Of a stretch of 64,000 nucleotides of DNA, positions 57,046 through 62,898 are shown piece by piece. The notes under the pieces were generated by a model. That model was not told where the DNA came from. It did no database searches and worked only from the letters and a program-made list of their open reading frames with translations. The position numbers and the translations under genes are program-made. How positions within the stretch are numbered: the stretch's first letter is position 1; each line of letters starts with the position of its first letter. Origin of the DNA: Trichoderma breve (taxonomy: Eukaryota; Ascomycota; Sordariomycetes; Hypocreales; Hypocreaceae); assembly GCF_028502605.1 (NCBI RefSeq), contig NW_026611594.1, positions 885,501 to 949,500 of the forward strand, given 5' to 3'.

Positions 57046-58634
57046 ATGTTGCGTTCTGTTGCGATTGCTGCGCTTTTGGGCGCTGGGTCGGCTGCTGCGG
57101 CGTCGACTTGCTCCCTTACCAAAAAGTGCCCTGAAGACGCGCCTTGCTGCTCCCGTATGTGGAATCAATTGCGAATTCATTATTCATTTTCTTGCTGTAG
57201 GATTTCCCGCTGACAAAATGGTTCTTGTGTCTAGAATATGGCGAGTGTGGTGTTGGCGCCTACTGCCTCGGCGGCTGCGATCCCCGAATGTCCTTTTCGC
57301 TCGACTCGTGCACGCCCGCGCCCGTGTGCAAGTCCAAGACGATGACCTTTGACAAGGACCTCAGCAGCATCGCCGACATTAGCGACTACCTCGGTGACCC
57401 GTCCACGGCCGACTGGATGGCCCAGGGAGAGCCTGCCTACTTTGACGGCAATGTGCTGCTGACCATGCCCAAGAACAGCGTCGGAACTGTGCTGGCAACG
57501 ACCGAGTACATGTGGTATGGCAATGTCAAGGCCAAGTTCAAGACGAGCCGTGGCAGGGGTGTGGTGACTGCTTTCATCCTGCTGTCTGATGTCAAGGACG
57601 AGATTGATTATGAGTTTGTCGGTGTTGATCTGGGCACTGCGCAGACCAACTGGTACTTCCAGGGCATCCCTGACTGTGAGTTTTATTTCCCTTCCCAGAG
57701 ACGGTGTATCGTGATGATTGCAATTGAATCAATGCTGACGACGTGACTCACAGACAACAACTCTGGCAACATTACCAAGCTCTCCGACACCTTCAACAAC
57801 TACCACACCTACGAGATCAACTGGACCCCCGATCAGATCCAGTGGCTCGTCGATGGCCAGGTCGGCCGCACCGTCAACCGCAAGGATCACTGGAACGCCA
57901 CCTCCAACCAGTGGTCATTCCCCCAGACCCCCTCCCGTGTCCAAATCTCCATCTGGCCCGGTGGTCTTGCCAGCAACGCCCAGGGAACCATTGACTGGGC
58001 CGGTGGTGAGATTGACTGGAACGCTGAGGACATCCAGAAGAACGGCTACTTTTACGCCACCTTTGAGTCCGTCGAGGTTTCCTGCTACAAGGCCACTGGC
58101 GAGCTCGGCAGCAGCTCGGGCGTCAGCTACACATATGACAACATCCGGGCCACCAACGACACCGTCGTCAACGGCAACAAGCGCACCAACTTGGCCACGC
58201 TGGAGGGCACCGGTCTCGACATGGATGCCGGCAAGCAGGATGATTCGTCGTCGTCGTCGGCTGCACCCTCGGGAACCGCCTCCAAGTCTGCCAGCAAGCC
58301 CAAGAACACCCAGGCCTCGATCCCCGGTGGAAGCAACGGCTCTTCCGGCACCGTCCCCGGCGGCGACGACTCTGGCGACAAGGGAAGCTCTGGTGGATCC
58401 AGCGGCGGTAGCAGCGGAGGCAGCAGCGGAGGCTCCTCTGGCGGCTCCTCTGGCGGCTCTGGTGGCAGCGCCCCTGCTGATACTTCTGGCTGCTCGACTT
58501 CCAGCTTCAACCAGGACTGCGGCAGCAGCAGCGACTCCAGCGGCAGCAAGAGCGGCAACAAGAACGCCGGATCAAAGACTGGCGTCAGTGTCCTGGCAGT
58601 GGGCCTGGCCGGTGCTGCTCTGTGTTTGATTTAA
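57046..58634 (+). CDS. CRH-type GH16 chitin-glucan transglycosidase, GPI-anchored
   Basis: Exons 57046-57154, 57235-57675 and 57754-58634 give 476 residues. The first intron (80 bp) lies in the cysteine-rich head. A signal peptide (MLRSVAIAALLGAGSAAAA) is followed by a cysteine-rich, chitin-binding-like module (about 21-60, with CPEDAPCCSQYGECGVGAYC). The GH16 domain (about 75-285) has the catalytic motif DEIDYE at 158-163, with Glu159 as nucleophile and Glu163 as acid/base. Then comes a serine/glycine-rich linker with about six GSSG repeats and a C-terminal hydrophobic segment (VSVLAVGLAGAALCLI) typical of a GPI attachment signal. Crh1/Utr2 enzymes transfer chitin chains onto beta-1,6/1,3-glucan at the cell surface. 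The repeat-rich stalk is likely heavily O-mannosylated and length-variable. Confidence 0.9.
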
Positions 58635-59647: not shown

Positions 59648-60745
59648 ATGTCTCGCCGTCTGCTTATTGCTCGCCCGGGGCACATCTACCTCGCAACTTA
59701 CACCTCCGCCTCAGCAACCATCACAATCGACCTCGACGAGCCGTTTCCCGGTAATCCCTCTTGGTTCGCCGTTTCTCCCACGGATCCTCATTTATTATAT
59801 ACTTTTGATGAAGGTGGCTCGACGACGTATGCTTTTCGTCTGGATCTTTCGGCGAATACATTGACAAAAGTCGCTCAATTGGAAGATGGTAGCAATGGCG
59901 TGTGTCACTTAGCTTTCAACAAAGAGGGGACAATTCTGATTGGCACGTCTTGGGCTGAAGGCACAATCGATATATGGAACACGGAATCTGAAAATCCGGA
60001 ACTCATCACGACGATTCAGTCGAAAGACCCCGTAGTCGACGCTGGGAGAGTCGCGCGCGCTCACGAAGCTGTCCTCGATCCTACGGGCCGCTTCTTCATC
60101 GTCAATGATCTCGGCACAGATTCGATACTCGTGCTTGATGCTCTGCGTCCTGACGTTCCGGTCGTGAGACGCGTCACCGTGCCGTCTGGCTCAGGGCCTC
60201 GACACGGCGTGTTTTATCCCGCCGGGGAGGGCAAGCCAGCGACGCACTACTTTTTGCTCTGCGAGACGAGTAATCGTGTTGAAGTATTTAAGCTAAAGTA
60301 CACGGAGGTGGATATTGAGTTTACGGCTACGGGGAGCTATTCTACGTTTTTGGATGAGGATATGGGTGCGTTTGCTGCGGCGGGAGAGATTGTGCTTTCG
60401 AAGGATGGCGGGCATGTTTATACGTCGAATCGGTTGATGACGACGCCGACGGAGACGATTGCGCATTTTCGGGTGAAGCCTGAGGGTGATGATGGAGGAG
60501 AGCTGAAGTTGGAGTTGGTGGGGGAGACGTCGACGCAGGGGAAACATCCGAGGATGTTTAGTTTGAGCAGGAATGGGAACGAGTTGTTTGTTGGGAATCA
60601 GGAGGGTGAGTGGGCGGTTGTGGTGTTGAGGAGGCGAGAAGATGGGACGTTGGAGGAGAAGCCTGTTGCGGGGGTTTTGATGGAGGATATTGTGAAAGGG
60701 GAAGGGGATGAGAGAGGACCAATGTTTGTGTTGGAGGTTGTGTAG
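59648..60745 (+). CDS. Lactonase-family seven-bladed beta-propeller protein
   Basis: A single-exon gene of 365 residues. The repeated blades are visible as DPHLLYTFDEGGSTTYAFRL, HLAFNKEGTILIGTSWAEGT, EAVLDPTGRFFIVNDLGTDS, SGSGPRHGVFYP, EIVLSKDGGHVYTSNR and GKHPRMFSLSRNGNELFVGN. These fit the 6-phosphogluconolactonase/carboxymuconate-cyclase-like lactonase family. The SGPRHGVFYP and GKHPRMFSLS phrases are the usual active-face signatures. There is no signal peptide, so the protein is probably cytosolic. In fungi, members of this family include muconate-lactonising enzymes of aromatic catabolism (3-carboxy-cis,cis-muconate cyclase) as well as proteins of unknown function. The substrate cannot be fixed from sequence. 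The 3' third has marked G bias on the coding strand (GGGGGAGACG-type codons). Confidence 0.82.
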   Translation: MSRRLLIARPGHIYLATYTSASATITIDLDEPFPGNPSWFAVSPTDPHLLYTFDEGGSTTYAFRLDLSANTLTKVAQLEDGSNGVCHLAFNKEGTILIGTSWAEGTIDIWNTESENPELITTIQSKDPVVDAGRVARAHEAVLDPTGRFFIVNDLGTDSILVLDALRPDVPVVRRVTVPSGSGPRHGVFYPAGEGKPATHYFLLCETSNRVEVFKLKYTEVDIEFTATGSYSTFLDEDMGAFAAAGEIVLSKDGGHVYTSNRLMTTPTETIAHFRVKPEGDDGGELKLELVGETSTQGKHPRMFSLSRNGNELFVGNQEGEWAVVVLRRREDGTLEEKPVAGVLMEDIVKGEGDERGPMFVLEVV

Positions 60746-60878: not shown

Positions 60879-62898
60879 CTAAATTAACAACAGTCCCATC
60901 ACTGCAAACACCATGCTGAAAGCGAGGCCGTGTGCACCCATCTTGCCAGCACCGTTCTTATCGCCGCTCTGCGCACTCTCCGCATCAGCACCATTCGTAG
61001 CACTGCTCTTCGCAGTGTTAGCAGCCGTAGTCGAAGCAGCTTCCGTCGAGCGCGCACCAGAAGGCGATGCCGTCGTGGAAGAAGGGGGCTGGACGGTAGA
61101 TGAAGCGGGAGCAGTTGTAGAGGAAGCTGCCTTGGAAGCGGTCTTGGAAGGGGATGACGAGGATGATGATTGGGAGGGAGACGAGGGCTCTTCGCTGCCG
61201 TTGGTGTTGCATGTGCCCTCGAGGTCTTGGAGGGACGAGGTAGATGTGATAGTCTTGACGCTGGTGCCGCAGTTGACGTAGGGGGCGAGGTGGACCATGC
61301 TGCCTGTGAGGTCGAACACAGCTGCACATATTCCCATTAGTTTGTGTTTTATATAGAGACATTGTATCTATATACATGTATGTATAGGGGTAATAGAGAA
61401 CTTACCATATGCAGACCGCAAAAAGGTATCGCCAAGCAGCGCAAACTGCGTGCTCCCCATCATCCCCAGGTAACAATGCGGCGGCAGCGAAGACACCGAC
61501 CGGATCATCTCACTGTACGGCACCTTGATCGTGACCCCATCGAAATCGAAATCAATGGTTCCAGGCTCGTTGATAAGACCGCAGTCCACAATGGCGAACC
61601 CGCTGTCGTCAGTGCCCGTCGATCCAAGACTGTCCGCAATCTCATTCACCAGCGATTGCGGCAAGAGAGTTAGGGTCGAACCGCTGTCGAGGAAGACGGT
61701 CATTTTGGTGTTGGCAAAAGTCGTCGATTTGCCAGTCGGTGGCGATAGGGAAATCGAGTTCATGTCGACCCAGTAGCGAGCAACACCGTCAGGAGAATCA
61801 TCAGCAGGGACAATCGGCAGATGAGCAAGTTTACCACTGAATTTCCCCGTGTCAACACCGCCAAAGATGATGACGCCCTCCTCCTCCGTCTTGCTACCCA
61901 GCGCCAAACTAAACGCCTTCGTCTTGGTAACACCCTGCTTGGCCAGCTCGTCGATAAAGTTCGGATAGAGCGTGTTGACCCCTTCGCCGGCGCCGATGCC
62001 GAGAATACCCGAGAACTCGTCGACACTGGCGTCCGCAACACCAAACTGGACGTCCTTCATGGTGGCGGAGCCCGGGAGCGAGATGCTGTCCTGGACGTAG
62101 GAGACGTTTGCGCTGCCGATGCCGTAGCGGAGCTGGGCGGCGCTGCCGGTGACGAAGGAGGTGGACGAGGATTTGGGGTCGTAGAAGCCGATGGCGCGGC
62201 AGAAGCGCTGGTCGGAGGTTTGGACGTTGGAGCAGTCGGGGTTGACCCAGAGCTCGAAGGAGCCGGTGTCGATTTGGGCGTAGACGGTTTGGGGAGGAGT
62301 TCCAATGTTGACTATTCATATACATATATTAGCAGCTATATCAAGAGTGATCTTGGGATATGAGTTACTTACGTTGAGCGTAGTACGAAACATCAGAGCG
62401 GTTCTCGACTTGGACTTCTACGGCTCGCTTGTCCAAAGTGCCGTGGTGGGCGTGGATGATGGGCAACGTAATGGTCCCCGAAGGAATCTCCTCGACCGGC
62501 AGCTTGCGCTTCTCGTTAAAGGGGAGAATGTGGAAAGGCTTGTCTTCGTCATCCTCGCTTCTCCGCTGAGGCACGGGGAGAGTGATTCTGCCATCCGCAC
62601 CGTCGTCGTCCTCGAGAATCTTGCGCTTGCTGGGATTCGGGTACGGCAGGATATGCCATGGCTTGTCCTCCTCTTCCCGACTTTCGACGTCTCGTTTGCT
62701 TGGGTAAGGGAACGGCAGGATGTGAAACGGCTTGTCCTCCTCCTCGGCCTTAACATCTACTCCTCGGGCCGTTAAATGTGAAGCCGGAGGGACCGGTAGA
62801 GTGATTGTGTTGCCGACGTCTTCCGGCTCAAAGGCATGCTTTGGCCGTGCCTGAGCCAGGACGGCTAGAGAAAGGACGAGAAATTGTGAGATTGCCAT
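60879..62898 (-). CDS. GPI-anchored aspartic protease with kexin-site peptide repeats in its pro-region
   Basis: Exons 62898-62373, 62311-61406 and 61321-60879 give 624 residues. The introns (61 and 84 bp) have GTAAGT donors, and phases fit. Order: a signal peptide (1-17); a pro-region (18-158) of short cassettes with HILP at 59, 82 and 123 and ITLP at 32, 105 and 143; then dibasic sites at 68-69, 91-92, 112-113, 130-131 and 157-158. The last site lies just before the mature enzyme. A pepsin-fold catalytic domain follows, with active-site Asp190 (IDTGS) and Asp384 (LDSGS). Next is a Ser/Thr-rich stalk (SSPSKTASKAASSTTAPAS) and a C-terminal hydrophobic GPI signal (AFSMVFAVMGLLLI). Yapsin-like enzymes act at the cell surface on wall and secreted proteins. 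The repeat-rich pro-region is unlike the usual short propeptide and resembles a kexin-processed peptide precursor. Confidence 0.88.
62424..62848 (-). repeat. Coding repeats: peptide cassettes of the protease pro-region
   Basis: Covers residues about 17-158 of the protease. Three cassettes read EEDKPFHILPFPYPSKR, EEEDKPWHILPYPNPSKR and DEDKPFHILPFNEKR. Three others contain GNTITLPVPP, GRITLPVPQRR and GTITLPII. The order is ITLP, HILP, HILP, ITLP, HILP, ITLP. Acidic runs precede each HILP unit, and KR or RR closes five of the six. Confidence 0.85.

Follow-up and report, generated by a model that had tools for sequence, protein, structure and literature searches.

KEX2-processed repeat proteins (KEPs), which the available text of Le Marquer 2019 (PMC6339444) and Umemura 2020 (PMC7329392) defines by a signal peptide, repeats and kexin sites, share with the gene described here a probable signal peptide, a conserved core and a variable copy number. 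The gene differs from them in that its repeats are joined to a complete catalytic domain and a prosegment, and a stand-alone form was not found. The closest described case is the GH128-domain protein 365456 of Coprinopsis cinerea. According to the available text of PMC9769878, it has in common with our gene a kexin-flanked peptide and a C-terminal secreted enzyme domain as well as a signal peptide, which is probable in our gene, and its peptide has been detected in culture supernatant and tissue. It differs in carrying one peptide, unrepeated according to its authors, in its glycoside hydrolase domain and in its unrelated sequence (PMC9769878). The same text states that some peptides of this sort were still present in Coprinopsis kex knockouts. 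Ustiloxin-type RiPP precursors likewise have repeats with dibasic sites, whereas our gene has no UstYa neighbour and is fused to an enzyme.

The literature thus already describes repeat precursors processed by kexin, and also an enzyme that carries a single kexin-flanked peptide. Our literature search did not find a repeated, conserved array on a protease prosegment, and searching with the core letters gave no paper. A word search found neither aspartic nor aspartyl in the main texts of PMC6339444 and PMC7329392, nor in PMC7099791, a survey of RiPPs in Trichoderma.

We analysed a stretch of 64,000 nucleotides of Trichoderma breve DNA, hereafter the window. One of its genes appears to encode a precursor of both an enzyme and peptides (Table 1).

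Table 1. Features of the protease precursor gene, with residues of the encoded protein and positions in the window
Feature	Position in window	Strand	Remark
Whole gene, candidapepsin/yapsin-like aspartic protease precursor, 624 aa	60879..62898	-	GT-AG exon joins
Exon 1	62373-62898	-	62898 = A of ATG; 62373 = final exon base
Exon 2, bulk of catalytic domain, DTGS (190-193) and DSGS (384-387)	61406..62311	-
Exon 3, catalytic-domain end, Ser/Thr-rich stalk, hydrophobic C-terminus (probable GPI signal)	60879..61321	-
Probable signal peptide, residues 1 to ~17	62848..62898	-	Hydropathy and AF2 helix 2-15 in P0001
Unit 1, ITLPV, residues 32-36	62791..62805	-	ITLPV in 15/15 sequences compared
Unit 2, HILP cassette core DKPFHILPF, residues 55-63 (HILPF at 59)	62710..62736	-
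Dibasic KR 68-69, candidate kexin site	62692..62697	-
Unit 3, HILP cassette core DKPWHILPY, residues 78-86 (HILPY at 82)	62641..62667	-
Dibasic KR 91-92	62623..62628	-
Unit 4, ITLPV, residues 105-109	62572..62586	-	TLPVP unit in 15/15 sequences compared
Dibasic RR 112-113	62560..62565	-
Unit 5, HILP cassette core DKPFHILPF, residues 119-127 (HILPF at 123)	62518..62544	-
Dibasic KR 130-131	62506..62511	-
Unit 6, ITLPIIH, residues 143-149, predicted zymogen (prosegment) strand	62452..62472	-
Dibasic KR 157-158, likely activation site ahead of mature enzyme	62425..62430	-	Arg158 invariant, 69 sequences

Peptide cassettes and an aspartic protease in one precursor

By its sequence, the gene encodes a complete aspartic protease of family A1, of the candidapepsin/yapsin-like kind: Pfam Asp matches residues 171-491 (E 7.1e-62), and both A1 catalytic motifs are present, DTGS at 190 and DSGS at 384. 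The closest entry, P0001 of Trichoderma lentiforme (OPSB), is 98 % identical and differs at 14 of 624 positions, three of them in the pro-region (none in the cores), two in the catalytic domain and nine in the stalk and tail. Candida secreted aspartic proteases are the closest to the window protein by sequence and to P0001 by modelled fold. A probable signal peptide is predicted from hydropathy and the AF2 helix. The hydrophobic C-terminus alone points to a probable GPI signal, with hydrophobic 15-residue windows beginning at 605 and at 607-610 and a C-terminal helix at 609-623 in the AF2 model of P0001.

The pro-region encoded by exon 1 has six units in the order ITLP-HILP-HILP-ITLP-HILP-ITLP. 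A sequence-only reading of this DNA had pointed to six short units here, and we were able to place each of them exactly and to compare their number with chance. Unit repetition is well above chance expectation: among residues 19-158 we counted 17 repeated 4-mers, whereas 10,000 shuffles gave 0.22 on average and never more than 5; [IT]LP occurs six times against a shuffle maximum of three and at least five dibasics appear in just 0.09 % of shuffles. At the DNA level, the pattern for P-[FWLC]-H-I-[LF]-P is found three times in the window, compared with a mean of 0.02 in 100 shuffles of the window. The same reading had the units alternating, most of them followed by KR or RR. The alternation is not strict, but KR or RR does follow five of the six units (units 2-6), there being no dibasic between units 1 and 2. 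Its description holds in that an array of cassettes bounded by dibasics continues in frame into an intact protease.

One KEP criterion is at least three repeats with KR, RR or KK between them, and the gene has three HILP cassettes with KR after each. The Le Marquer threshold, as given in the available text, is that repeats make up at least 15 % of the protein (PMC6339444). The share in the window gene lies below this value, at 11.1 % when 23-residue cassettes are counted and 4.3 % when cores are counted. Among six orthologues, P0002 (T. barbatum, 25.9 %) and P0004 (T. arundinaceum, 19.7 %) exceed the threshold by cassettes, and none reaches 15 % by cores.

The last unit and the prosegment strand

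In the AF2 model of P0001, the sixth unit forms a strand (143-149, ITLPIIH) that is the sole strand of the pro-region and lies in a block with a mean pLDDT of 82. Superposed on this model, the first residues of mature Candida enzymes and pepsins fall on residues 141-142. His149 and Arg158 are invariant, and P146 nearly so, across 69 aligned sequences, a hand-picked subset of the 120 homologues. A single-unit relative from Diaporthe, P0048, has VHLPVVH alone; it is modelled as a strand at 31-37, with a mean pLDDT of 88 for residues 31-40, and when VIA-align compares the model with pepsinogen 2psg, the matched range opens at residue 30 of the model and 1P of the chain. Thus the two models and the invariant His and Arg make unit 6 look like an ordinary prosegment strand, and the prosegment strand of the A1 family is present, by prediction, in both proteins. 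The Pfam search of the window protein reported no A1 propeptide model. Compared with pepsinogen, unit 6 would take the place of the prosegment strand, whereas no helix is modelled between this strand and the mature enzyme in P0001 and pepsinogen has nothing that corresponds to the upstream array.

Units 1-5 are modelled quite differently. No residue of P0001 from 17 to 134, the stretch that holds them, reaches pLDDT 50; the model has a single helix of three residues there (129-131), and these units look, as predicted, to be outside the folded zymogen. The earlier suggestion that the array is not simply a propeptide has to be corrected for unit 6, which appears to be the zymogen strand of the family, whereas the units upstream of it are disordered in the model. 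All six units share LP followed by a hydrophobic residue. Because this feature is common to the units and the zymogen strand, the array probably arose from the propeptide.

Conservation, copy number and spread of the cassettes

HILP copies 1 and 3 of the window gene (units 2 and 5) have the same nine core residues although six of the nine codons differ, all synonymously, and synonymous sites between them are saturated. Their flanks differ by eight amino acids in the nine codons before the core and by six in the nine after. Two amino-acid differences (F/W and F/Y) separate the cores of copies 1 and 2, and likewise those of copies 2 and 3; synonymous differences number two in the first pair and five in the second.

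Across 15 sequences (the window gene plus P0002-P0015) we counted 46 cassettes, with P0001 left out as near-identical to the window gene, P0016-P0019 because their models start inside the pro-region, and P0121-P0131 also set aside. K-P-x-x-x-L-P is kept in all 46, H and I in 45 each, and a dibasic follows within 11 residues of the core in every case, while the outer spacers have an entropy of 2-3 bits. This count includes an NILP variant (second cassette of P0013) and an HMLP variant (one cassette in P0008). Adding the exon-1 entries P0121-P0129 brings the total to 69 cassettes, of which 67 fit [KR]P-x-HILP. The catalytic domain provides a yardstick: in 17 Trichoderma-type sequences, 55 % of its columns are invariant. 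The cores are thus far better conserved than the spacers, as the sequence-only reading had anticipated, and we are highly confident that the codon and residue patterns reflect purifying selection on the HILP cores.

The number of copies varies from gene to gene, a variation that the sequence-only reading had proposed to look for: one in T. austrokoningii, two to four in others including the window gene with three, six in T. arundinaceum and nine in T. barbatum. The T. barbatum and window genes are close on a catalytic-domain tree (drawn from sequences other than P0010 and P0014 and shown without support values), so the copy number changes fast. Adjacent cassette copies are near-identical in T. 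barbatum P0002. In P0006, P0007 and P0014, H-D-[IL]-P-F-[LV]-K-E-K-R stands in place of the last HILP cassette and is apparently a decayed copy. No cassettes are apparent in the entries of T. reesei, T. gracile, T. aethiopicum and T. citrinoviride (P0016-P0019), whose models begin at an internal Met. As that Met lies within the pro-region, these public models lack the signal peptide and would lack any cassettes; for T. citrinoviride, a separate partial pro-region model, P0130, from a contig equal in length to that of P0019, carries cassettes.

To look beyond Trichoderma, we considered 101 listed homologues, P0020-P0120, none of them labelled Trichoderma, and found no H[IM]LP motif. The catalytic-domain start that we used as a boundary is included in 97 of them, with none or one pro-region TLP motif in 67 and at least two in 30. 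In 61 of the 67 there are 54-76 residues before the boundary, signal peptide included, in contrast to the six units and 165 residues of the window pro-region counted to the same point; in this the gene departs from candidapepsins and yapsins. Named relatives with at least two TLP motifs come from Tolypocladium, Conoideocrella, Clonostachys, Metarhizium, Purpureocillium, Colletotrichum, Verticillium and Lomentospora, genera of the Hypocreales, Glomerellales and Microascales. Multiple TLP units are therefore more widely spread than HILP.

Orthologues lacking the cores had been named beforehand as evidence against the sequence-only reading's interpretation. HILP is indeed absent from P0020-P0120, yet it is present in P0131, a metagenome protein of 250 aa that corresponds to exon 1 of a relative. 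P0131 has four [DE]RPWHILP[IV] cassettes with two SLPVDDLPGGMTLPV units between them and ends with the same prosegment strand and exon border. Its final 44 residues, to YYAQ, match Tolypocladium at 31 positions and the best Trichoderma-type and Clonostachys sequences at 30 each, counts which place it probably outside Trichoderma. Compared with Trichoderma, its cores match almost completely at P, H, I, L and P and partly at the preceding acidic residues, and its outer spacers barely match. K is replaced by R in all four cassettes, W stands for the commoner F, and the F/Y after HILP becomes I/V. The changes at K and at the residue after HILP indicate that neither position is fixed.

Other arrays occur on relatives of this protease. 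Lomentospora P0051 has a type of its own, LPVDE...TLPV. The pro-region of P0087, a metagenome protein of 716 aa, has repeated LPVV-E-ES-GTLNV-like units with some dibasics, which suggests lineage-specific arrays on the same protease. The picture that we draw is of a pro-region that grew as modules containing LP were duplicated, one branch of which is HILP. That HILP descends from the prosegment strand we infer from the shared LP and hydrophobic residue, a likeness of three residues.

Candidate roles of the released peptides

We propose the following mechanism. Unit 6 (ITLPIIH...LDKR) would be the working prosegment, its strand filling, in the model, the slot taken by the mature N-terminal strand in solved mature enzymes; we hold this with high confidence, as we do the purifying selection that maintains the HILP cores. 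The five upstream units would be disordered extra modules, duplicated from the strand region and later diverging to the HILP type. In the Golgi, cleavage by kexin behind each KR/RR would set free peptides such as DVESREEEDKPWHILPYPNPS, as the conserved sites suggest, and yield one mature enzyme together with several acidic peptides with a hydrophobic LP core. A kexin-type P-domain is encoded in the genome, on another contig. We regard this duplication origin and kexin release as likely.

The peptides may then act in trans on their own protease as extra prosegment-like ligands, either aiding its folding or suppressing its activity after the cut, up to its dilution at the cell surface. Candidate ligands are peptides of the DKPFHILPFPYPS type, of the ITLPV/ITLPVP type and ITLPIIHAHHGTLD. 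There is a precedent in pepsin, whose prosegment peptide, according to the available text of PMC4077824, binds native pepsin in trans with nanomolar affinity and catalyses pepsin folding. Action with the protease is favoured by two observations, namely that our searches did not find the cassette without the protease and that the units resemble the prosegment strand. The single-chain AF2 model of P0001 docks no upstream unit on the enzyme and therefore gives trans binding no structural support, and nothing in the prosegment strand corresponds to K-P-[FW]-H, which points to another partner, in place of the enzyme or besides it. Taken with all the preceding steps, a kexin-excised array that derives from an expanded prosegment and whose peptides act with the protease is our leading reading, held tentatively and at somewhat less than even chances. 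It is more speculative still, and in our view rather doubtful, that the zymogen overproduces its own prosegment-derived trans regulator, with the copy number (1-9) setting the dose of inhibitor or folding helper per enzyme.

Alternatively the HILP peptides may be independent secreted peptides, such as a signal or an antimicrobial or surface-active agent, with the protease a mere carrier or co-expressed partner. This possibility, which we would place below even chances as well, is nearly as likely as action with the protease. The layout is KEP-like in its repeats, acidic spacers, dibasics and copy numbers of one to nine, and copy number changes fast, as between T. barbatum and the window gene. 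Furthermore the GH128 fungal protein with its one kexin-flanked peptide yields a detectable secreted peptide, according to the available text (PMC9769878). Independent peptides fit less well with the ITLP units, which match the prosegment strand instead of a separate peptide, and with the failure of the core letters to retrieve a paper.

They also fit less well with our searches for a stand-alone precursor. The exact pattern K-P-[FWLC]-H-I-[LF]-P occurs in the 38.5 Mb assembly exclusively at the three places in the window gene. A looser pattern gave 16 matches, of which three are in the window gene; 11 of the 13 other places have P-x-HILP frames, none resembling a secreted cassette precursor, and the remaining two encode HIF, not HIL. 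The sequence-only reading had suggested searching for the cassettes in stand-alone precursors, and none is among the 18 and 15 matches listed in two pro-region searches, made with a five-sequence pro-region alignment and with P0004 residues 20-245, respectively. Each search scored the approximately 8,000 candidates sharing most words, so this absence is not proof. Ten of the 18 matches (P0121-P0129 and P0131) represent exon 1 with translation continued beyond YYAQR into intron sequence, and the rest are the partial P0130, the Trichoderma protease copies P0012, P0015 and P0016-P0019, and Tolypocladium P0020, which has no HILP. All 15 matches to P0004 are protease entries. We also looked at 13 regions at other aspartic protease genes of the genome and found cassettes in none of the frames from ten of them, not all of these frames having a whole pro-region and L024, L025, L027, L001-L006 and L008 being outside the comparison.

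A further alternative is that the HILP core mimics a substrate and so inhibits pepsin-type enzymes at the active-site cleft, be it that of its own protease or of a competitor's enzyme, with Ile and Pro around the would-be cut hindering cleavage. The core K-P-[FW]-H-I-L-P resembles the renin substrate and its inhibitors (H-P-F-H-L/V-I-H), with P-F-H at matching places. Among the fold matches is 1gkt, a structure of endothiapepsin with H261, an inhibitor of the renin substrate type. The renin substrate is described with Ile5, Phe8, the Leu10-Val11 bond and Ile12 in the available text of PMC6378967. Strict conservation of the core is in agreement with such a role. The likeness extends over seven residues and was found after the fact, and AF2 orders no cassette on the enzyme. 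We consider this explanation unlikely and the active-site cleft, as an alternative target of the peptides, a lead only.

The array could also be no more than an acidic spacer whose length rises and falls through slippage and whose peptides have no function. The range of copy numbers and the near-identical adjacent copies of P0002 are what slippage would produce, but cores 1 and 3 have diverged synonymously and not in amino acids, and the core is nearly invariant in the 46 cassettes and kept in P0131 despite its differing spacers. For the cores, these sequence comparisons largely refute a passive spacer, which we regard as very improbable.

Least probable of all, to the point of being negligible, is that the cassettes are cores of a modified UstYa-type RiPP, a class of precursor with which the sequence-only reading had compared the architecture: the arrangement of repeat, acidic spacer and dibasic and a Tyr near the core in two of the three window cassettes fit, yet our searches found no stand-alone precursor and no UstYa gene is near, the window having no UstYa (DUF3328) match and the one match on this contig among 46 in the genome (C8:1300820) lying about 352 kb away.

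Propeptides are usually deemed disposable. Here one has seemingly been multiplied, with an HILP core that is nearly letter-perfect amid changing surroundings, and an enzyme prosegment is suggested as a route by which a kexin-processed peptide precursor may originate. The natural series of one to nine copies is suited to testing whether the peptides are regulators of their own enzyme or independent of it. Trichoderma species are used in biocontrol and enzyme production, so that mutants can be made.

Further open frames lie in the surroundings of the gene. At 57225-58634 on the plus strand, a frame with a GH16 match (57225-57743) is followed further on by a Gly/Ser-rich repeat and a hydrophobic end (58191-58634); both parts probably belong to a single gene for a cell-wall enzyme, which lies two genes away from the protease. 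A seven-bladed lactonase-type protein (Pfam PF10282) is encoded at 59648-60745 on the plus strand, tail to tail with the protease gene. About 2.2 kb past the end of the window, an open frame on the minus strand (L056:2302-3240) encodes a hydrophobic stretch and a very His-rich tail.
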